Assembly (NCBI GenBank): GCA_019694755.1 | Contig: JAIBBI010000003.1 | Coordinates: forward strand, 1-64,000 | Direction: 5' to 3' | Length of the DNA: 64,000 nt | Source of the DNA: Gemmataceae bacterium | GTDB taxonomy: Bacteria; Planctomycetota; Planctomycetia; Gemmatales; Gemmataceae | Shown here: positions 47,648 through 62,515 of the stretch, one piece after another | Position numbering within the stretch: position 1 is the stretch's first letter | How the letters are laid out: each line of letters opens with the position of its first letter | Position numbers and translations under genes: made by a program | The notes under the pieces: model-generated | What the model was told of the DNA's origin: nothing | The model's input: the letters and a program-made list of their open reading frames with translations, nothing else | The model's database searches: none

Positions 47648-48304
47648 TCACGTCACGGAATGAACGAGTTCGGCAAGTTCGCGGACGCGGCGGGGGCAAA
47701 CGACTCCGTCGCGTCCGCCTTCGCAAGCGGCTCCGCGGACGGCAATGATGTCGGGGCCGAGCGAAAGCACGACTCGGATCGAGTCGAGGTTCAGTGACCC
47801 GGCCAAGGCGAGCAGTCGTTGATTCGCCCGGCATGAATTGATGAGCGTCGTCAGGTAGGGGACGGAGCACCAATCGAGTAGCCCACCCGTTTGTTTCGAG
47901 CAGGTGTCGAGCAGCAGCGCGGCCGGGCGAAGGTCGGCCGCCGAGTCCAGAATGGCATCGCGGTGCGGCAGATCGACGTAAGCCACGAGCACCGCGGGGC
48001 AGGGCAGGCTCGCCCGCCATGCGAGCCACCGGGCCCGCCAATCAACCGGGTCGGACAGGCCAACCTTCGCAAAGCTCAGGTCTGCCGACGCAAGAGTCTC
48101 AGGCAGGTGTTCACCCAGCTCTCCCATGGCCGCGCTGACCGGGACATCGGCGCCAATCGCGGCCAGGACCCGGCGAACGACCGACGCATTCGCCGCCCCC
48201 AGCGGGCCGTTGCGTGGCTCCTTGATATCGACGATGTCGGCACCGGCATCACGGGCAATGATCGCCTCATCGACGGACCGGACGCTGACGAGAAGTCGAG
48301 TCAT
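47648..48304 (-). CDS. mfnB: (5-formylfuran-3-yl)methyl phosphate synthase, MfnB-like
   Basis: A 218-residue TIM-barrel protein, start ATG 48304. MTRLLVSVRSVDEAIIARDA and ADIVDIKEPRNGPLGAA match MfnB (UPF0264), where the Lys in DIKEP forms the Schiff base. Two glyceraldehyde-3-phosphate molecules are condensed to a furan phosphate, the first step of methanofuran. Many planctomycetes use methanofuran-like and tetrahydromethanopterin cofactors to oxidise formaldehyde. Its ATG overlaps the preceding ASCH gene by 4 bp. Confidence 0.85.
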   Translation of the reverse strand: MTRLLVSVRSVDEAIIARDAGADIVDIKEPRNGPLGAANASVVRRVLAAIGADVPVSAAMGELGEHLPETLASADLSFAKVGLSDPVDWRARWLAWRASLPCPAVLVAYVDLPHRDAILDSAADLRPAALLLDTCSKQTGGLLDWCSVPYLTTLINSCRANQRLLALAGSLNLDSIRVVLSLGPDIIAVRGAACEGGRDGVVCPRRVRELAELVHSVT

Positions 48305-48702
48305 GGCACGGCAAAAAACTTGATGTTTCCGATGGCGGGGCGGAAGTCGATGACCTCGGGCGATGAGAATGTAAAGCCGTACAGGGCGGGGGGCTGAAAC
48401 CACGAGGGATGGTTGAGGTGCAGGAAGCGGTCGGCGGCGAAAGCCCGCCGGCTGGAGTAGGTGACGCAGCCCGTCAGGATGGCCTGGCCGATGACGCCGC
48501 CCCGCAACTCCGCCAGGGGTTTCAAGTCCTCGGGAAGCCAGGCCCAGGCCTCCGGGCGGGTGTCATCGACTTTGGCGGCGTGAATCCACAGGGGGCCGAG
48601 TCGCTGCGTAGACCATTTGCGGATTTCAACGGTTTTCAGGCCGGCGACGAGGAGGGCCGCCCAGGGTTGCTTCAAAGACAGGGCAACGGTGGGGCCCGAC
48701 AC
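48301..48702 (-). CDS. ASCH-domain protein
   Basis: A 133-residue protein starting with GTG at 48702. The N-terminal ALSLKQPWAALLVAGLKTVE and RKWSTQRLGPLWIHAAK match the PUA-like ASCH domain. ASCH domains bind RNA or nucleotides. The stop overlaps the mfnB start (ATGA), so the two are co-translated, but no functional link to methanofuran is obvious. Confidence 0.85.
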   Translation of the reverse strand: MSGPTVALSLKQPWAALLVAGLKTVEIRKWSTQRLGPLWIHAAKVDDTRPEAWAWLPEDLKPLAELRGGVIGQAILTGCVTYSSRRAFAADRFLHLNHPSWFQPPALYGFTFSSPEVIDFRPAIGNIKFFAVP

Positions 48703-48843: not shown

Positions 48844-51800
48844 ATGTCCGTCATCCTCGCCCCAGGTTTGGAACCGATCCCGGGCTACCGCCTCATCGAG
48901 CGGCTCGGCCGGGGCGGCTTCGGCGAAGTCTGGAAGGCCGAGGCACCCGGCGGTCTTCTCAAAGCCATCAAATTCGTCTTCGGCGACTTGGACGCTTCCG
49001 GCGGCGGAGAGCCGGCCGATCAGGAACTGAAATCGCTCGACCGCATCAAGACGATCCGCCACCCTTACATCCTTTCGCTCGAACGGTACGACATTGTCGA
49101 CGGTCAGTTGCTCATCGTCATGGAGCTGGCCGACCGCAATTTATGGGACCGATTCCGCGAGTGCCGGGCTCAGGGCCTGGCCGGCGTTCCGAAGCAGGAG
49201 TTGCTGCGATATCTGGAAGAAGCGTCGGAAGCGCTCGACCTGATGAACACTCAGTATCAGTTGCAGCACCTCGACATCAAGCCGCAGAACCTGTTTCTCG
49301 TCTACAACCACGTGAAGATCGCCGACTTCGGGCTTGTGAAAGGCTTCGAAGGCAAACGAGGAACGATCACCGGCGGCGTCACTCCCGTCTACGCCGCACC
49401 GGAGACGTTCGAAGGCTGGGTGAGTCGGAACTCAGACCAGTACAGCCTGGCCATCGTGTATCAGGAATTGCTGACGGGGCAGAGACCCTTTAACGGAACC
49501 ACCGCCAGGCAACTGCTCCTGCAGCACTTGCAGGCCCCGCCCGACGTGACGCCGCTCTCCGAAAATGATCGGAATGCCGTGCGGCGTGCGCTCGAGAAAA
49601 AGCCTGACGACCGGTGGCCGAGTTGCACAGAGTTTGTGCGGGCGTTGTTTGAGACGACGCAACATGGGCCACGCTATGTGACCCCGTCCGGTGCCATACC
49701 GCCGCCAGCGTTGAGCCAGTCTGGGCTGATCACGGCGACCCCGTCGGCCGGAGTATCGCCGACCGACTCGATCGAAGCCCCGCCGAGTACGGGGATTTCG
49801 AGCAGTAGCCCGGCAACGCAGGCGCGGGTTCGCGCCCCGGTAACGGCGACGCTGCCGCGGTTCGATTCGGGCGTTCAGGAGCTGTCGCTCCCGCCCAAGG
49901 TCGCTCTCCCGGACGAGGATGCGGGCATCCTGTTCCCGGCAGTGATCATCGGGCTGGGCGGGGCGGCCGGCCGGGTCCTGAGGATGATCAAGCGCGAAAT
50001 CAGCGAGAAATACGGAACCCATCCGCTGCCCAACATCCGGCTGATCGCGGTCGATACCGATCCCGTGGCCCTGCGGTCGCTGGCCGGAGACGGTCCGTCG
50101 CCACTCGCGGCCGACGAGATCTTCCACGCGGGGTTGAACCGTCCAAGCCATTATTTGCGGGGCGAGGTGGTCGGCATTGAGACCTGGCTCGGAGCGTCAA
50201 CGCTTTATCGACTGCCCAAGCACCCCGGAGCGGCTGAGCTTCGCGCTTTCGGCCGGCTCGCGCTGCTTGATCATGCGGCTCCGCTGAGTCGCCGATTGCG
50301 TGCGGAACTCGACGCGGTCCGCAGTCCCAGCGCGCTCAGCATTGCGGACAAGACTGCTCGGCTCGGCGTCCGCAGTGATCGGCCGCGGGTCTATGTGATC
50401 GCCTCGCTGGCAGGGGGCACCGGCGGCGGCATGTTCCTTGATGCGGCGTATCTGGCCCGGGCGGTGCTCCGTCAGGTCGGTGAGGTCGACCCGCAGGTGT
50501 CCGGTGTGCTGATGATTCCGCCGTGCGACCGCAAGGCCGGTGTGACTCCGATCGCAAATTCCTTTGCGGCGTTGACGGAACTCAACCACTTCTGCCATCC
50601 CAACGTCCGCTACGAAGCCAGGTTTCAGCCGAAGGGGGCGGTAGAATCGGATGCAGGACTGCCGTTCGGCCGGGTTTTGCTGCAACAATTCGACAGTTTA
50701 CCGGGGACGGAATCGGTCGACCCCGCCTTCGGGCAGACGGCGACCCTGATCTTCAACGAACTGCTGACCCCGATCGGTCGGACGGCGGACCGCGAACGGC
50801 GAGGGTTTTCGAGCCACCGCCGGGATAGTGTGGTCCCGGCCCAATCGGCGGCGACCTACTTTATCTCCTGGCCGCGCGACCGCCTGGCACGAGTCGCGGC
50901 CAGACACATCGGTCAGGAACTTGTCCGCCGCTGGACGGCCAAGGACGCGGGCCGGTTCGCCGAGGTCGTCACGCCAATCCTCGACGAGCAATGGGATCTT
51001 CGCGGCCTCTGCCCGGACAAAGTGGCCGACGCCATCCACCAGAAGGTCTCGTCACAACTTGGGATGCCGGCACAGGATCGGATCGAGGCGTTGATCGCTC
51101 CGCTGTTAGACCCGAGCCGAAGCCTGGAAAAGATCGATGCGGGGGCGGTCTATTCGATCGTCGATCAGTTGGTGCGGCTGCTCGGGCCGCCGGAAGGGTA
51201 TTTGACGGAAGCACCGGCCGGGCGAATTCCGCCACTCTTTGAGCAGGTAGGGCCGGAACAGGCGCATGCGGTGGATCAGCAGATCGCCGACCTGACTATT
51301 CAAACCGTAGAGCGACCAGGGATGCGAATCGCTGGCGCTGAGGAACTGGTCCGCCAACTGGCCGAGCGGGCGGGGCAGGCCAAGAAAAGCTACGAACACC
51401 TGCACGAGTCTTTGACCCACGAGGCCGGGCAGACTTTTCGCAAGCTGTTCCCGATGATTGCCGGGCTCGACAAGTACGCGTTCTCCGGGAAAAAGCGGGA
51501 GCAGCACGTTCAGGAGATGATCGGTCTGTTGCGGGATTACCCGAAGAAGCAGTATCAGGCACTATTGGCCAAGAGTCTCAGCGATCTTTACCGCGGCATC
51601 ATGGGGGCCGCGCCGGAGTATGCCCGGGAAGTTCACTTCTGTCGCGAGCGGCTGCAGGAAACTTTGAAAGAGCTTGGCGGCCAAGGTGCCTTGGACGGCG
51701 GGCAGAAGTCCGCAAACGGGCCGGGACGATTCCTGTTGCCCGAGGGAGCGTCGGACCTGGACGAGGCCGCCGAACGCTCCGTGTCAGCTTTGTCGAACGA

Positions 51801-52341
51801 GCAATGGATTATGTTCGATGCCCGCATCCAGGCGGCCGTCACAGATCGATTCCATTCGTTGGTGAATTTCTGCCTGACGGCCGGCCCCCGGGCCGAGCAC
51901 CTGGCCGAATTGCTCGTCAAGGAAGGCCAAGCCTTTTTCCTCGTGAGGCTACCGCAGAATCAGGCGGCGGAACTGCTGGTGCAGTCGATGGAGCCCGACG
52001 AATTGACCTCGGTCCTCGCCGAGGCCATGCAGGAATGTCACCCGGCCCTGGCAGGGCCGAAAGCCGCGGTGGAATCGATTGTGACCATCGTGGCAGCGCC
52101 GGATTCCGAAGCCGGGCGGGCGGTCCAGCGGGCCGCAGCGGTCGCCGCGGCGGACCTCGCGTACGCGACTTGCACGGCCGCCAGCGACGTTGTCATCTAT
52201 CGCGAATTGCGGCACATCGACCTTGCAGACCTCCCGCACATGGGGCCGGTGGGCCAGGAAGCTTACCAGCAGGCCCTTTCCGAAGGTACTGCCGTGCCAC
52301 ATAGTCGGCTCGACGTGAGCTGGGCCAAACTTCGAGTGTGA
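48844..52341 (+). CDS. Ser/Thr protein kinase fused to tubulin/FtsZ-like domain, copy 1
   Basis: A 1165-residue protein. Start chosen at ATG 48844 by alignment with copy 2; an in-frame GTG at 48781 is an alternative. Residues 14-270 form a kinase: GRGGFGEVW, Lys43, HLDIKPQN (Asp144), DFGLVK (161-166) and YAAPETF. A Pro/Ser-rich linker spans 271-363. Residues 364 onward open with FPAVIIGLGGAAGRVLRMIK, then IRLIAVDTDPVALR and ASLAGGTGGGMFLD (524-529), which match the nucleotide loops T1, T2 and T4 of FtsZ/tubulin; the family is Tubulin_2-like. The last 450 residues are helical and unrecognised. No membrane segment is seen. Confidence 0.85.
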   Translation: MSVILAPGLEPIPGYRLIERLGRGGFGEVWKAEAPGGLLKAIKFVFGDLDASGGGEPADQELKSLDRIKTIRHPYILSLERYDIVDGQLLIVMELADRNLWDRFRECRAQGLAGVPKQELLRYLEEASEALDLMNTQYQLQHLDIKPQNLFLVYNHVKIADFGLVKGFEGKRGTITGGVTPVYAAPETFEGWVSRNSDQYSLAIVYQELLTGQRPFNGTTARQLLLQHLQAPPDVTPLSENDRNAVRRALEKKPDDRWPSCTEFVRALFETTQHGPRYVTPSGAIPPPALSQSGLITATPSAGVSPTDSIEAPPSTGISSSSPATQARVRAPVTATLPRFDSGVQELSLPPKVALPDEDAGILFPAVIIGLGGAAGRVLRMIKREISEKYGTHPLPNIRLIAVDTDPVALRSLAGDGPSPLAADEIFHAGLNRPSHYLRGEVVGIETWLGASTLYRLPKHPGAAELRAFGRLALLDHAAPLSRRLRAELDAVRSPSALSIADKTARLGVRSDRPRVYVIASLAGGTGGGMFLDAAYLARAVLRQVGEVDPQVSGVLMIPPCDRKAGVTPIANSFAALTELNHFCHPNVRYEARFQPKGAVESDAGLPFGRVLLQQFDSLPGTESVDPAFGQTATLIFNELLTPIGRTADRERRGFSSHRRDSVVPAQSAATYFISWPRDRLARVAARHIGQELVRRWTAKDAGRFAEVVTPILDEQWDLRGLCPDKVADAIHQKVSSQLGMPAQDRIEALIAPLLDPSRSLEKIDAGAVYSIVDQLVRLLGPPEGYLTEAPAGRIPPLFEQVGPEQAHAVDQQIADLTIQTVERPGMRIAGAEELVRQLAERAGQAKKSYEHLHESLTHEAGQTFRKLFPMIAGLDKYAFSGKKREQHVQEMIGLLRDYPKKQYQALLAKSLSDLYRGIMGAAPEYAREVHFCRERLQETLKELGGQGALDGGQKSANGPGRFLLPEGASDLDEAAERSVSALSNEQWIMFDARIQAAVTDRFHSLVNFCLTAGPRAEHLAELLVKEGQAFFLVRLPQNQAAELLVQSMEPDELTSVLAEAMQECHPALAGPKAAVESIVTIVAAPDSEAGRAVQRAAAVAAADLAYATCTAASDVVIYRELRHIDLADLPHMGPVGQEAYQQALSEGTAVPHSRLDVSWAKLRV

Positions 52342-52493
52342 CATCGTAACGGTTATGTGATTTGCCCTGATTGTTTCCAATTTGATGCCGAGTCAAGCCG
52401 CGCAGGGCTTGAGTTGCGAGTCCTTCCAGGCAAAGGTAAAATAGGCGAGGCTCGCGGGCTGCGAGCCGACCTTCCCGTCCTCCCGGGCAATTC

Positions 52494-55400
52494 ATGTCTG
52501 CCTTGATCGAAGCCGATTCCGAGCCGATCCCCGGCTATCGCCTCATCGACCGCCTCGGTAGCGGTGGATTCGGCGAAGTCTGGCGGTGCAAGGCGCCGGG
52601 TGGACTCTTCAAGGCCATCAAGATCGTCCACGGCGACGTCCGACAACTCGACTCGGACGGCTCGCACCGCGCCGAACAGGAGCTGCGTGCCCTGCAACGC
52701 GTGCAGGCGATTCGCCATCCGTACCTGCTGAGCATTGAGCGGTACGACGTAATCGACGGTCGGCTCATGATCGTCAGCGAACTGGCCGACTGCAACCTTT
52801 TCGACCGCTACGAGACGTTCGCGAATTCCGGGAAGCCAGGCATTCCCCGGGAAGAACTCCTCCGATACCTGCGCGAAGCAGCCGAAGTGCTGGACTTGAT
52901 GAACCACACGCATCAGTTGCAGCACCTCGACATCAAGCCGCAAAACCTGTTTCTGATTCACGATCACGTCAAGGTCGCAGACTTCGGGCTGGTGAAAGAC
53001 CTCGAAGGCGTACGTACGGAAATGCAGGGTGGAGTTACGCCGCTGTATGCCGCGCCGGAGACGTTTGAAGGGGTCATCACCCAGTTTTGCGATCAATACA
53101 GCCTGGCCATCGTTTATCAGGAGCTCTTGACGGGGCATCGGCCGTTCCAGGGGACGACGGTGCAGCAACTGGTGCTGCAGCACGTGCAAGCACCGCCGAA
53201 TCTATCACCGCTGCCGCACGCCGATCGGCCGGCCGTCGCCAAGGCTCTGTCCAAGAAGCCGGAGAATCGCCACCCTTCGTGCATGGCTCTGATCCGGGCT
53301 TTGGAAGCAGGCTCGACCGAGCCCCCGCAGCCGCGCGTGTCGTCCGTCGCCAGGCACGGAGTTGATCCGCAGCCCGCTCCGCCGCGGCCGGGCACGACGG
53401 TCCGAGTCGACCCCGAAGTTGATGAAAAGAAAAAGGGAATCGACATCGGGGCGAGCATCCGCCGACTCGAAGGGAAGGGACAGAAGCCCTTTCGCCCCGA
53501 CACGCCGCCGACAATTGTCGGGTTTCGCCGCGAGGAACTGCCAACTGGCCCGCAGGTAGCCGAGCCGACAGTCCGCGAGGCGCCGCCGGAGTTCACGGGC
53601 AACGGAGTCCTGTTCCCGGCCCTGGTCGTCGGGCTGGGTCGCGCCGGGCTGGTCACGCTGAAGCGGCTCCGGCAAGTCCTCTGCGAGCGGTTCGGCGGGA
53701 TGTCATCCCTGCCACACATCAAGTTGCTCTACATCGACACGGATCCGGAAACGGCCGACACGGCCGTGGTGGGCGGCGGCGGTTCCGCCATGGAGCCGGA
53801 CGAGATTCTGTTGGCCCGCCTGAACCGGGCGAGCCACTATCTGAAGCCGAGGCGGAACGGCCGGAGCCTGATTGAAGGTTGGTTCGACGCACAGTGGCTT
53901 TACAGGATCCCGCGCAACCCGCAGGTGCTTGGCCAGCGGGCGCTGGGCCGGCTGGTGTTCGGGGATTGCTATTCGCAGATCTCCGGGCGAATTGAAGAGA
54001 TGCTGGAGCAGGTCGTTCTGCCCGACAATCTGCTCAGGTCCGACAAGCACACGTCTCTCGGCCTGCGGACGAACCGCCCTCGCGCTTATGTGGTCTCTCA
54101 CCTGGCCGGCGGCACTGGCGGCGGCATGTTTCTCGATCTCGCATACCTGCTCCGTCACCAATTCCGGATGTTCGGTTATAAATCGCCTCAACCAACCGGC
54201 CTGCTCGTCGCTCCCGGTTCGGACGCGGTCACGCCCGCCCAGGTCGGCGGTTTGGCAAACACGTTTGCCGCGCTGACCGAACTGGTCCACTACCATCACC
54301 CCGACGCGCGACACACCTGCACCTTCGACGACCGCGACGCGCTCCTCGTCAATTCCGGCCCGCCGTTCGAGCGGACGATCGTCCTTCCGGGTAACGACAA
54401 CCCGGCTAACTCTGGCAGTCGGGACGGGTCGTTGCTGGCCGCTGATTTTCTTGCGCGGGAATTGACGCAGCACTTCGGTCGCGCCGTCGACGGTTGCCGG
54501 GTGGCGGTATTGAAACCGGCCCGCCCGACAACGGAGGTCACCGTCGGCACTTTCGGTCTGACGACGCTCTCCTGGCCGCGCAAGGCGCTGATCCGGTGTG
54601 CCTCGCGGCGGCTTTGTGAGATGGTGGTCGATAGGTGGAGTCGACTCGACGTGACCCGGCTCAAACCACTTGTCCGCGAGCGGGTGGATGCGTTGTGGGA
54701 TTCTCAGGAACTGCGCCCGGACCTGCTGGAATCGCGATTGCAGGCCGCCGTCGCCTCCGCGCTCGGCGAGCCCCCCGGTGCGATGTTTGCGCGAATGTCC
54801 GCGCCGTTTACGCCGAAAGGGTGGTTCGGCGGCTCGCTCGACGTGAACGCGGCCTACGAATTCGTCACCCGGTGTGAGCAACTGTTCGGCCACCTGGCAG
54901 GCGACAATTACGACGCGGACATCGGAATCGTCGGGACCGCGCTCCTCGCTTCGACGGAATCGCTGGTCCGTGAATTTGGAACTCAACTGGCCCAGCTTGC
55001 CGTGTCGCTGATCGAACAGCCTGAATTCCGGATGTCCGGCGCGGAAGAGGCCGTTCACCAGTTGCGGTCACGGATCGACGAATTCCGCAACCGACACGCG
55101 AGTGAAGCCGACCGATATTCCGAACTGGCAACGCGGGCGTTTGAACGGATTCAGCAGGCGTTGTCGACGACGGGAGGTCGCAAGTCGGCGAACGAGTTCG
55201 CCGAAGCGGCCAAATCGTACCCGGGATCGCGGTTGGCCGCGCTGGTTCATCGGCGGATTGCGGAAATCGGCCTGACGCTTTCCAACGACCTCGGCGAGCA
55301 GGCCAACGAGATTGGATTCTGCCGGCAGCGACTCGACGAGTTGATCCAGGGGCTCAAGGCAGAAGGCGAAACACTCCCCTCGGCCGTCGGGTTGATGCTC

Positions 55401-56006
55401 CCGCCGGGGTGCAATACCGCGGAAGAAGCGATCGACGGGTTGTTGTCCGGCGTTAGCGAGAGCGACCTTCAGGAACTCGATCGTCGGATGCAGCGGATGG
55501 TGCAGTCGCAATTCACCGCTCTGGTTCACGTGTGTCTGAGTACTTCCAACATTCTCGCGAACCTGGCTCCGGCCATGTTGAAGTTGGCTCAGCAGTTCAT
55601 GGCCGCCCGGGTCGGCGAATCCAATGCGGCGGAGCTGTTTAAGGAACGATTCTCCGAAGGACCAGCCTACCAGTCGGCCGTCGAACACGCGTACGACGCG
55701 GCTTCACCGGTGTTGGCCGACTCGATCGGCGTCATGACGGGCGAAGTCATCGCCTTGAGCGTCCCGCCGGGTCCGGCCGGCGACCGGTTCGCGGATGTCG
55801 CTCGAAACGTCGTTACCGACGGCGACCTGGTCGTTACTGTCGGCGTCGACGATGTGGCCTTTTACCGCGAATTGCCGCGGATTCCGCTGGCCCGGCTTCC
55901 GCAGTTCGGCCCGCGTGCCCGCGACTGCTTTCAGCAGATTGCAGACCGCGATCGCAGCCCACCCCATACCCGCACGGACGTCGAACAATGGCTGAATCCG
56001 CGGTGA
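52494..56006 (+). CDS. Ser/Thr protein kinase fused to tubulin/FtsZ-like domain, copy 2
   Basis: A 1170-residue paralogue of the previous protein. The kinase (residues 14-272) has GSGGFGEVW, Lys43, HLDIKPQN, DFGLVK and YAAPETF. The linker (273-370) differs entirely in sequence from copy 1. The tubulin-like part has FPALVVGLGRAGLVTLKRLR, IKLLYIDTDPETAD, and HLAGGTGGGMFLDLAY (GGTGGG at 539-544). A segment ANTFAALTELVHYHHPD is shared with copy 1. The last 19 bp overlap the start of scpA. It lies 152 bp after copy 1 on the same strand. Confidence 0.85.
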   Translation: MSALIEADSEPIPGYRLIDRLGSGGFGEVWRCKAPGGLFKAIKIVHGDVRQLDSDGSHRAEQELRALQRVQAIRHPYLLSIERYDVIDGRLMIVSELADCNLFDRYETFANSGKPGIPREELLRYLREAAEVLDLMNHTHQLQHLDIKPQNLFLIHDHVKVADFGLVKDLEGVRTEMQGGVTPLYAAPETFEGVITQFCDQYSLAIVYQELLTGHRPFQGTTVQQLVLQHVQAPPNLSPLPHADRPAVAKALSKKPENRHPSCMALIRALEAGSTEPPQPRVSSVARHGVDPQPAPPRPGTTVRVDPEVDEKKKGIDIGASIRRLEGKGQKPFRPDTPPTIVGFRREELPTGPQVAEPTVREAPPEFTGNGVLFPALVVGLGRAGLVTLKRLRQVLCERFGGMSSLPHIKLLYIDTDPETADTAVVGGGGSAMEPDEILLARLNRASHYLKPRRNGRSLIEGWFDAQWLYRIPRNPQVLGQRALGRLVFGDCYSQISGRIEEMLEQVVLPDNLLRSDKHTSLGLRTNRPRAYVVSHLAGGTGGGMFLDLAYLLRHQFRMFGYKSPQPTGLLVAPGSDAVTPAQVGGLANTFAALTELVHYHHPDARHTCTFDDRDALLVNSGPPFERTIVLPGNDNPANSGSRDGSLLAADFLARELTQHFGRAVDGCRVAVLKPARPTTEVTVGTFGLTTLSWPRKALIRCASRRLCEMVVDRWSRLDVTRLKPLVRERVDALWDSQELRPDLLESRLQAAVASALGEPPGAMFARMSAPFTPKGWFGGSLDVNAAYEFVTRCEQLFGHLAGDNYDADIGIVGTALLASTESLVREFGTQLAQLAVSLIEQPEFRMSGAEEAVHQLRSRIDEFRNRHASEADRYSELATRAFERIQQALSTTGGRKSANEFAEAAKSYPGSRLAALVHRRIAEIGLTLSNDLGEQANEIGFCRQRLDELIQGLKAEGETLPSAVGLMLPPGCNTAEEAIDGLLSGVSESDLQELDRRMQRMVQSQFTALVHVCLSTSNILANLAPAMLKLAQQFMAARVGESNAAELFKERFSEGPAYQSAVEHAYDAASPVLADSIGVMTGEVIALSVPPGPAGDRFADVARNVVTDGDLVVTVGVDDVAFYRELPRIPLARLPQFGPRARDCFQQIADRDRSPPHTRTDVEQWLNPR

Positions 56007-56794
56007 CGGATCCGGAGTCGGGTGAGTACCGGGTCCGTCTGCCCGAGTTTCACGGCCCCCTGGACCTGTTGCTCCACCTGGTCAAGCGGAACGAGGTCGA
56101 TGTCCGCGATATTCCGGTCGCGATCATCGCGGAGCAGTTTCGCAGTTTCCTCGATGTGATTGCGGTCATTGATGTGGAGGCGGCAGGCGAATTCCTCGTG
56201 ACTGCCGCGACGCTGCTCGAGATCAAGAGCCGGCTGGCGCTTCCGCAATCCGAATCTGTCGCGACAAAGGTGGAAGCCGAAGAGGATCCGCGGCGGGAAC
56301 TCGTCCAACAGTTGCTGGAATACAAGAAGTTCAAGGATGCCGCGAGCCGACTGGGCGGGCGGGCTGCGGAGGTCGGCCGGCGATGGCCGAGGGAGCCTAT
56401 CGCGCCCCCGGCCGCCAGGACAGAACTACCGGCCGCGGTTCAGTCGCCGGAATTGTGGGATCTCGTCAGCGCATTCGGGCGACTCGTTCAAGATTCGGCG
56501 CAGCTCGAGCCGGATACCGTGATTGCCGACGACACCCCTCAAGACGTCTACCGCGAACAGGTCCTCGCGGCAGTCGGATCGGCAGCCACGGTCGCGTTTC
56601 GCGACGCGTTTCCGCCACCCCACCACAAGCTGCGATTGATCGGCCTGTTTCTTGCGATGTTGGAGTTGATCCGCAACGGGCGACTGATCTTCACCGTCGG
56701 CGACACGACTGACGACATTCGCCTGGCGTTGGTGCCAGTCTCAGATGACCGAAAGGAGGAAATTGGATCGGAAAGTCAGGAAGTCGGTGGTTGA
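55988..56794 (+). CDS. scpA: Segregation and condensation protein ScpA
   Basis: A 268-residue kleisin that joins SMC heads in the condensin complex. EFHGPLDLLLHLVKRNEVDV is the ScpA N-terminal signature, followed by IPVAIIAEQFRSFLDVI and LVTAATLLEIKSRLALP. The C-terminal winged-helix part is FRDAFPPPHHKLRLIGLFLA and MLELIRNGRLIF. The start lies 19 bp inside the upstream kinase-tubulin gene, indicating co-expression. Its own end overlaps the opposite-strand gene by 54 bp. No scpB or smc gene is in the window. Confidence 0.92.
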   Translation: MAESAVTDPESGEYRVRLPEFHGPLDLLLHLVKRNEVDVRDIPVAIIAEQFRSFLDVIAVIDVEAAGEFLVTAATLLEIKSRLALPQSESVATKVEAEEDPRRELVQQLLEYKKFKDAASRLGGRAAEVGRRWPREPIAPPAARTELPAAVQSPELWDLVSAFGRLVQDSAQLEPDTVIADDTPQDVYREQVLAAVGSAATVAFRDAFPPPHHKLRLIGLFLAMLELIRNGRLIFTVGDTTDDIRLALVPVSDDRKEEIGSESQEVGG

Positions 56795-59755: not shown

Positions 59756-62515
59756 TCAACCGCGCAGTCGCAGCCCGATCGGCAGGGAGTCCCCGAATGC
59801 TTGTGCCCGTTCCGCCATTGTCCGCGGCGACTGCTCCCGGACCATGGTTTGCCACTCGGCAGGCCCTCCCGCACTGCGAAGCGCGGCCAGCACGCTCGAC
59901 CGCCGGGAGTCGTCGATGTCGAGGGCTCGCTGCCCCGTTCGGCGGGCCAGTTCGGCGAGGCAGAAGGCCCACGAGTACTTTTCACTGCTGTTTCCCGGCT
60001 GGAATGGCAGCAACTTGTCGAGCCAGTTCCCGACAGTTTCCGGGTGGACAACGGAATTCAACGGGCCGTAGAGCAGCGACCGGGCCCCGAGCCGACCGAT
60101 CGACCAGAACGCATAGGTCGGCGCCGGTGAGACGCCGATCTTCTTCAGCACGGCCTCGCCTAATGCGGTCTTTGTTTTGGCGTCGAGTCGTTCGAGCGAG
60201 GCGGCCGCCCTCCACATCTCGGCGAGTTCGTTGGCCCCCGGTTTCACCGGCGACTTGCCGATAAGCGTGGGTCGCAAGCGGTCGAAAAGGGTCTTCTGAA
60301 AGGAGCTGCCCAGCCCGCCTGCGACGCGTCGCCAGAGAATCCAGGCGTCCGCGCCCGTCGGTTCGGGCGGGGCCGATTGCCCCGGCTTGGGGGCATGGAG
60401 CAACTTCCAGAGGGTATCGACGCGGTGCCGGTCCATAGCGTCGCCGAAGCCCGGGCGAAGGCAGAAGCCGACGAGGTTGTACCAGCGGGCCAGGTGGGCA
60501 GGAGTCCGCCGACGTGCGTCTGCCACCGCGGCCAGCGTTTCCCACAGTCGCCGACAGACGGCCGTGGGCCACTCATCCCGAGGCGACTCGAGGGCCGATT
60601 CCATGGCTCGTGTCAATTCGTTCGGCGTCGGGCCGTCGCCAGTAAAGGCCCTCGAGATCAGTTCCGCGGCCGGGGCGATTATCGATTCGGGCACGACCTC
60701 AGTCGGCCCGGTGGTCGGCAAACCCTCGTCGTCATCCTCGTCGTCCGACACGATCTCCCGCGTCGAGAACTCCAGTCGCCAGCGCGTTCCACCATCCGCC
60801 GCGACGCAGGCCAATTCCAGAGTACCGATGGCGGTCGTACGTGAGGCGAGCGTGACAGGCACAACTTTCCGCTCCGTGCTCGATCGCTTGCCGGCACGCA
60901 GTACGGTCGTCAGGCTCGGGAGACGACGCAACTGATCGGGGGACACGGTGAGTACGTCGCCGGCTTTGTCTTCGCGGGCGGTGCTTGTGTAAAGCGGAAA
61001 GCTGACCGGCTCGCCCAGCGTGAGCTCTAGTTCGGGTTTCGGCAGGGCAATCTCGACATGTTCTTCCAGGTGACGGGGCACTACGCAGAGCACCGTGGCC
61101 AACTCGCCGGCCGAGTGGCTGCCGACCTCGACGTAATACGAGCGGGCAGTCCCGCCACCGATCGCCCGCCCCCCGGTGTGCTTGATCCATGCGAATGCCG
61201 CAGCCCCGTACGCGACTGCCAGATCGAGAGAGGGCGTCAGAAACAACAGCGGTGGCTTTCGTCGTTCGTACCAGGGCGCAAGCGCATGCAGCAATCTGTC
61301 GCGGAGGGATTGTGGGGTAAACACGCCGCCGTTGAAGAGGATGGCGTCAGGTGCGGCTCCTTGTGGCAAATGGCGAGCGAGGAATGCCGCGAGGTGCCGA
61401 GTAACGGCCGCGTCGGCGACGTACGGCAAGCCCATCTCATGCAGGCCACCACGAACGACCTTGGGTGTGGATGTGGGAGAAACATCGGGGAAGAAGCCGT
61501 CGCCGATCACGGCGTTCACGTCGGTCAAAGTCAATGGTACCGTGACCGTCCCGCCGACGACGCTGCGTCCCCGACCGACGACCGTGACAGGTTCGGAGTC
61601 AGGCGGATTCGGGCCGAGGAGTCGCTCTTTGGCCCGACGACAAGCCTGGATCAGCATAGAAAATTGCGTGGCGTCGAGCTTGCCGGCCGGCAGCCGAGTC
61701 TCCACGTGACGGGCCAGCGCAAGGTCCATGTTGTCACCACCGAGCAGCAGGTGGTCGCCCACTGCCTGGCGATTGAACACAAGCTCGCCTTTTTCTTCGA
61801 CGGCGGCGATCAAGCTGAAATCGCTCGTACCGCCCCCCACATCGACGACGAGACACGTCATGCCGGGCGTCACCTGCCCGGCAATCCTGTCGTCGGCCAC
61901 GTGTTGCCAGCAGTAAAACGCGGCCTGAGGCTCTTCGAGCAGCGTGACGTTCGTGAGCCCGGCAAGTTTGGCCGCCTCGACCGTGAGCGTCCGAGCGACA
62001 TCGTCGAAGGATGCCGGGACGGTGAGTACGACGGGCAGTTTCTCGATGCGGTCGGCCTCGCTCTTGCCCAGGACGTAATTCCATGAGTCCGCTAAATGTC
62101 GGAGGTATCGTGCCGACGCCTCGAGCGGTGAGATTCGGTGGACATCCGGCGGAGCGCCCCACGGCAGGAGGGCGGCCGTGCGATCGACTCCCGGATGGCA
62201 CAACCACGATTTGGCTGAGGAGACGAGTCGCCCCGGCACCCGGGTTCCGTGATCGCGGGCAAATTCGCCGACCGGGTCCGTTGCTTTGGGGTTCCAGGGA
62301 AGTGCCGATGCGCCGGGTGGAAGGTCGTGTTCGCCTGGTCGATACAAAAAGGAAGGCAGGAGTGTCCGCGGGGAGACCTCACCCACGGCGACAAGCTGCG
62401 GTACCGGAAACGGCTTCAGCTCCGGTCGACCCGAGCGAGTGGCCTTCAAGTCCACATACGCGAGCGCGGAATTCGTCGTCCCCAAATCAATGCCGATCAG
62501 ATACCGGACGGCCAT
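59756..62515 (-). CDS. Hsp70-like ATPase with DUF3731-type C-terminus
   Basis: A 919-residue protein with the N-terminal Hsp70/actin ATPase fold: LIGIDLGTTNSALAYV (phosphate 1), VVDVGGGTSDFSLIAAV (phosphate 2) and ILFNGGVFTPQSLRD. The substrate domain of DnaK is replaced by a longer region with no DnaK-like lid, and the last 250 residues are alpha-helical (DUF3731-type). This architecture is found in many Gram-negatives with unknown clients. It lies 40 bp after the DUF4287 gene on the same strand and may share its transcript. Confidence 0.85.
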   Translation of the reverse strand: MAVRYLIGIDLGTTNSALAYVDLKATRSGRPELKPFPVPQLVAVGEVSPRTLLPSFLYRPGEHDLPPGASALPWNPKATDPVGEFARDHGTRVPGRLVSSAKSWLCHPGVDRTAALLPWGAPPDVHRISPLEASARYLRHLADSWNYVLGKSEADRIEKLPVVLTVPASFDDVARTLTVEAAKLAGLTNVTLLEEPQAAFYCWQHVADDRIAGQVTPGMTCLVVDVGGGTSDFSLIAAVEEKGELVFNRQAVGDHLLLGGDNMDLALARHVETRLPAGKLDATQFSMLIQACRRAKERLLGPNPPDSEPVTVVGRGRSVVGGTVTVPLTLTDVNAVIGDGFFPDVSPTSTPKVVRGGLHEMGLPYVADAAVTRHLAAFLARHLPQGAAPDAILFNGGVFTPQSLRDRLLHALAPWYERRKPPLLFLTPSLDLAVAYGAAAFAWIKHTGGRAIGGGTARSYYVEVGSHSAGELATVLCVVPRHLEEHVEIALPKPELELTLGEPVSFPLYTSTAREDKAGDVLTVSPDQLRRLPSLTTVLRAGKRSSTERKVVPVTLASRTTAIGTLELACVAADGGTRWRLEFSTREIVSDDEDDDEGLPTTGPTEVVPESIIAPAAELISRAFTGDGPTPNELTRAMESALESPRDEWPTAVCRRLWETLAAVADARRRTPAHLARWYNLVGFCLRPGFGDAMDRHRVDTLWKLLHAPKPGQSAPPEPTGADAWILWRRVAGGLGSSFQKTLFDRLRPTLIGKSPVKPGANELAEMWRAAASLERLDAKTKTALGEAVLKKIGVSPAPTYAFWSIGRLGARSLLYGPLNSVVHPETVGNWLDKLLPFQPGNSSEKYSWAFCLAELARRTGQRALDIDDSRRSSVLAALRSAGGPAEWQTMVREQSPRTMAERAQAFGDSLPIGLRLRG

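Follow-up and report, generated by a model that had tools for sequence, protein, structure and literature searches.

A co-retained pair of kinase-tubulin fusion genes in the Gemmataceae, with an old but loose position beside scpA

The fusion genes and their predicted structure

The window analysed was a stretch of 64,000 nucleotides from a Gemmataceae bacterium (assembly GCA_019694755.1, contig JAIBBI010000003.1). Two genes lie in tandem on its forward strand, gene 1 at 48844..52341 (1165 aa) and gene 2 at 52494..56006 (1170 aa), and each encodes a protein kinase fused to a Tubulin_2 domain (PF13809). The mechanically called open reading frame of gene 1 begins at GTG 48781, but the N termini of relatives favour ATG 48844. 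Gene 1 specifies a Hanks-type Ser/Thr kinase domain (48886..49617; residues 15-258; Pkinase E = 1.1e-28) and a predicted tubulin-like GTP-binding domain (49942..50925; residues 367-694; Tubulin_2 E = 1.5e-37), while gene 2 specifies a Ser/Thr kinase domain (52521..53318; residues 10-275 of the model; Pkinase E = 1.4e-29) and a tubulin-like domain (53622..54629; residues 377-712; Tubulin_2 E = 4.2e-33). The Pkinase matches were far above the curated cut-offs, and the Tubulin_2 matches scored 130 and 115 bits, respectively, against a curated cut-off of 27. Pfam searches and alignments thus confirmed a first-pass annotation of this DNA, which had described two proteins each with a complete kinase, a non-conserved linker and FtsZ-type loops. 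The proteins were 38% identical over their full length with the exception of the linker, which in gene 2 (53319..53582) was modelled as disordered (pLDDT of ~31 over residues 276-354). The GLG, DTDP and GGTGGG motifs were present and conserved in both tubulin-like domains, the last forming the T4 nucleotide loop (50413..50430 in gene 1 and 54108..54125 in gene 2). A part made of long helices and the C terminus completes each protein (50926..52338, coiled-coil-like with helices of up to 70 residues, and 54630..56003; AlphaFold2 secondary structure). Kinase motifs were detected in 103 of 103 long in-family homologues, all with the same domain order, and the kinase-Tubulin_2 architecture is therefore far beyond chance.

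The pair sits exactly between scpA, encoding the kleisin, and two divergent genes. The scpA gene (55988..56794, +; PF02616 E = 4.4e-23) overlaps gene 2 by 19 nt, as previously annotated, if translated from ATG 55988, or by 4 nt (GTGA) from GTG 56003, a start that suits those of relatives better. On the other side are an ASCH-domain gene (48301..48702, -; Pfam E = 3.6e-7) and an mfnB-like 4-HFC-P synthase gene (47648..48403, -; PF04476 E = 1.2e-44), whose true start is probably at ~48307. The latter is a methanofuran-pathway gene, and in some genomes two more conserved genes (c7 and c8) follow it. An Hsp70/DnaK-related protein with DUF3731 is encoded near scpA (59756-62515, -), and an Hsp70-like cluster (c12) was also present near scpA/mfnB in two fusion-free genomes (L107 and L108). 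Promoter and terminator scans gave matches at or below the chance level.

The structure of the tubulin-like part of gene 1 (806 residues, 360-1165) was predicted with AlphaFold2 using 36 sequences, resulting in a mean pLDDT of 86.7 and a pTM of 0.77. All 50 of the 50 best PDB matches detected by Foldseek were tubulin or FtsZ (E values of 2e-4 to 1.8e-3, probability of 1.00), with modest TM-scores to tubulins (TMt of 0.29-0.46). The full-length model of gene 2 contained a well-defined kinase, the disordered linker, a tubulin-like domain and very long helices, and its best PDB matches were the PknB, PknF and Aurora/Myt1 kinases. On the strength of these models, the second domain is a predicted tubulin fold, as the first-pass annotation had anticipated. 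A sequence-based search for solved homologues produced none that was convincing, the PF00091 match of gene 1 reached only E = 0.19, and Pfam detected no FtsZ_C or Tubulin_C domain in either protein.

Conservation of motifs was examined in alignments. The T1 loop (G-x-G) and the T4 loop (GGTG[GS]G) were conserved, and hhalign placed T1 and the end of the 'DTD' strand on the 'NTD' of Escherichia coli FtsZ (E = 0.0016), with coverage of T1-S2 only. The T7 catalytic loop and H7 were not recognised in the tubulin-like part with an alignment of this reach; a conserved GRxADxxR stretch follows S6 and is at most a candidate T7. In FtsZ and tubulin, hydrolysis takes place across the interface between subunits and depends on the T7 loop. 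The kinase motifs were the best conserved portion of the fusion proteins, with the Gly-loop, VAIK Lys, alpha-C Glu, HxDxKxxN, DFG and APE invariant in 34 full-length sequences. These kinases are of the non-RD type, the Arg of HRD being replaced by Leu (HLDxKPxN in gene 1). No convincing transmembrane segment was found in the fusion proteins, and the sole hydrophobic peak corresponds to the strand that opens the tubulin domain.

Three paralogous lineages in the Gemmataceae

The fusion was detected in 50 of 61 Gemmataceae genomes and was absent from the other 11, some of which were rated 100% complete (G013 and G028). Among 213 sampled planctomycete genomes beyond this family, 11 had a Tubulin_2 match (8 above the cut-off). 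Several of the members examined from these genomes lacked a kinase and adjoined a vWA protein; a further two, both belonging to a single different family within the class, were kinase fusions. Gemmataceae kinase-Tubulin_2 and scpA genes were also found in a MAG titled Bacteroidales bacterium UW1SPNA076 (L073 and L088); the contig of L088 matched a Gemmataceae contig (G019:C252) in both length (50878) and content, and the Bacteroidales label is probably wrong.

A tree of 118 rows resolved three clades, P1 in 25 genomes, P2 in 22 and P3 in 38, with at most one member of each per genome. The tree was constructed with FastTree and is approximate, as is its order of the splits between P1, P2 and a further lineage, P12. 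Gene 1 fell in the P1 clade (25 rows, support of 99) and gene 2 in the P2 clade (22 rows, support of 100). P1 was accompanied by P2 in 21 genomes; another 4 had P1 without P2, and 1 had P2 without P1. P12, a single-copy sister lineage, was found in 19 other genomes and never alongside P1 or P2. Both P1 and P2 were retained even where they are physically apart (G007, G031, G042, G048, G015 and G055). Judged from this phylogeny, the window pair is a P1 and P2 pair, the product of an ancient duplication and co-retained since. The P3 gene of the source genome lies on another contig (C158; L002 and L130) and has a shortened T4 loop (CGGSGG) and relaxed DTD and LNRP motifs. In the P3 lineage, present in 38 genomes, the T4 loop was one residue shorter and the DTD and LNRP consensus was lost, so that nucleotide binding by P3 is probably altered.

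Co-divergence of the lineages was explored with distance matrices, using few genomes and simple controls. Across 15 genomes, P1 and P2 showed no significant co-divergence beyond that of rpoB (p = 0.19); in a 12-genome subset, p was 0.0065, or 0.11 when ScpA was also controlled. The strongest residual signal was that between P1 and P3 (11 genomes), with a partial r of 0.86 given rpoB and 0.78 given rpoB and ScpA. These two unlinked genes co-diverged above every other tested pair (11-14 Gemmataceae genomes), which could reflect an interaction or merely shared rate changes.

The position beside scpA

A survey for the same architecture near scpA, as proposed in the first-pass annotation, detected both the fusion and the scpA linkage in other Gemmataceae. 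Of ~45 genomes that contain both genes, 11 (hand count) had scpA as the next gene downstream of a fusion gene, in the same orientation. Most of these neighbours were separated by 10-77 nt or overlapped; the gaps in two genomes were 194 and 864 nt. The adjacent copy varied, being P2, P12, P1 (G025) or a divergent type (G045). In G025, the scpA-linked P1 (L042, 10446-13313, -) has an open reading frame that begins inside the kinase, which suggests that the kinase part is broken or mis-assembled. In the rpoB tree, genomes with the linkage spanned the deepest split of the Gemmataceae, and hence the scpA-adjacent position is ancestral. The place of the fusion genes upstream of scpA would go back to the family ancestor, in which the pair lay with the divergent ASCH/mfnB promoter region on one side and scpA on the other. 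Where fusion genes still adjoin scpA, the two are likely to be co-transcribed.

This ancestral arrangement was not rigidly maintained. On the species tree, scpA parted from the pair several times while the pair persisted. ASCH and mfnB were divergent neighbours in ~30 distinct loci (own count), even where scpA was gone, and were conserved beside the fusion genes at least as widely as scpA; other neighbours of the fusion genes were not conserved. Fusion-free genomes exhibited an 'empty site' in which scpA lies head-to-head with ASCH/mfnB or mfnB (L106 and L107). The repeated loss of linkage, the empty sites and the unconserved remaining neighbours all point to adjacency as inherited order, with shared transcription but without functional meaning, and this is probably the correct account of the linkage. 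Inertia explains less well why a tight, operon-like spacing has endured in 11 genomes over a very deep divergence. Overall, the scpA linkage looks like inherited gene order and is not proof of condensin coupling. This account concerns the linkage only and is compatible with the function proposed below.

Interpretation and relation to known systems

For the function of the proteins, we lean towards a soluble, cytoplasmic, kinase-controlled signalling scaffold of tubulin-like type formed by P1 and P2, and not a division ring. In each protein, a flexible linker joins an intact Hanks-type kinase to a putative nucleotide-binding domain of predicted tubulin fold, and the long helices follow. The tubulin-like part would bind GTP and, with its paralogues, assemble or act as a scaffold; phosphorylation of the assembly or its clients by the attached kinase would exert control. 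We infer kinase-gated, GTP-dependent assembly from membership of the tubulin and Hanks-kinase families together with the long helices; GTP binding, phosphorylation and heteromerisation are likewise putative.

It is possible, with a clearly lower probability, that these proteins are mainly signalling kinases in which the tubulin-like domain serves as a non-polymerising nucleotide sensor. This pure sensor-kinase reading stands because the T7 loop is not recognisable, and it is consistent with the superior conservation of the kinase motifs and with the shortened T4 loop of P3. Against it, P1 and P2 retain the DTD element as well as GGTG[GS]G, and the long helices suggest assembly.

The first-pass annotation had suggested that a phosphorylation-regulated tubulin-fold system may connect chromosome condensation with division, which here would mean coupling of SMC-ScpAB to a division process that lacks FtsZ. 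The kinase and the tubulin fold are upheld by the sequences and the predicted structure, but the coupling is unsupported. In its favour are the same-strand, closely spaced scpA on both sides of the deepest split of the family, the presence of SMC and ScpB genes elsewhere in the source genome, and the lack of FtsZ, which had been assumed for planctomycetes generally and was borne out here, as canonical FtsZ or tubulin was found in 0 of 61 Gemmataceae genomes (the single PF00091 match is itself a Tubulin_2 gene). Against this, complete genomes without the fusion exist, which argues against an essential division role. Moreover, the scpA-adjacency label required 6 changes on the rpoB tree (fusion absence required 2), and ASCH and mfnB were at least as faithful neighbours. 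The co-divergence of ScpA was of similar strength with P1 and with P2 and a little weaker with P3; the ScpA-P1 signal was as strong as the ScpA-P2 signal, and therefore there is no special tie between P2 and ScpA. Beyond the Gemmataceae, no planctomycete Tubulin_2 gene was near scpA among the matches listed. We do not favour a connection between condensation and division, and the coupled system is unlikely. The ordinary ScpB gene of the source genome is on contig C83; a second ScpB-like match (G000:C53:21607-22080; L090) lies within a 1023-aa open frame.

More doubtful still is an elaborate model in which P1 and P2 are obligate partners in a heteromeric tubulin-like polymer gated by the kinase, P3 is a regulator with altered nucleotide binding, and the polymer is tied to chromosome organisation through co-expression with ScpA. 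Replacement of FtsZ in division was rejected as a general role given the complete genomes G013 and G028, and is also disfavoured by the rarity of Tubulin_2 matches in the other sampled planctomycetes. A defence system was likewise rejected, the PADLOC matches being to the kinase domains only.

Fusion of a kinase to a tubulin-like domain is already published (2010, 2023 and 2024). The FtsZ-like 1 (FtsZl1) family corresponds to Pfam Tubulin_2, and an extra kinase at the N terminus was described for four of its planctomycete members; T7 and the FtsZ/tubulin C-terminal domain were likewise not identified in that family (Makarova and Koonin 2010, PMC2875224). FtsZl1 has been recorded for the genome of Gemmata massiliana as well. 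In the available portions of a 2023 paper (PMC9871819), FtsZ-like is equated with Tubulin_2 and an N-terminal kinase is noted in Planctomycetes, and in those of a 2024 paper (PMC11032199), planctomycete kinases that are purely cytoplasmic carry the tubulin-like domain more often than any other partner. The fusions in these portions have the same architecture as the window pair, but paralogue lineages, a tandem and a position near scpA are not described there. A literature search for FtsZ-like, Gemmata and ScpA jointly found no paper, in a coverage that mostly excludes subscription journals.

The window pair shares with FtsZl1 the Tubulin_2 domain, the GGTG loop, a long helical part and a helical C terminus, but differs in adjoining scpA, in being an ancient P1/P2 duplicate and in its scanned neighbours, none of which was a vWA, GTPase or OmpA partner. 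No vWA domain was found in seven window neighbours; an adjacent vWA is common in FtsZl1 but neither universal nor required. The planctomycete Tubulin_2 genes that lie beside vWA (L118, L120 and L121), as in canonical FtsZl1 operons, have the Tubulin_2 domain in common with the pair but no kinase motifs or Pfam kinase match. With FtsZ, tubulin and BtubA/B, the pair shares the predicted fold and the T1 and T4 loops, whereas it differs in the kinase fusion, in having no FtsZ_C or Tubulin_C match and in its unrecognised T7. BtubA/B provides a precedent for a paralogous tubulin-like pair. New here are the division of the fusions into three orthologous lineages, the joint retention of P1 and P2, the changed T4 loop of P3, and a position beside scpA that is ancestral yet loosely kept.

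The adjacency to scpA shows how easily gene order can be over-read, since it is old but loose. The Gemmataceae have unusual cell plans and lack FtsZ, and the three widespread fusion paralogues, of which two have been retained together through deep time, offer a clear target for testing whether tubulin-like proteins perform cytoskeletal work in this family.
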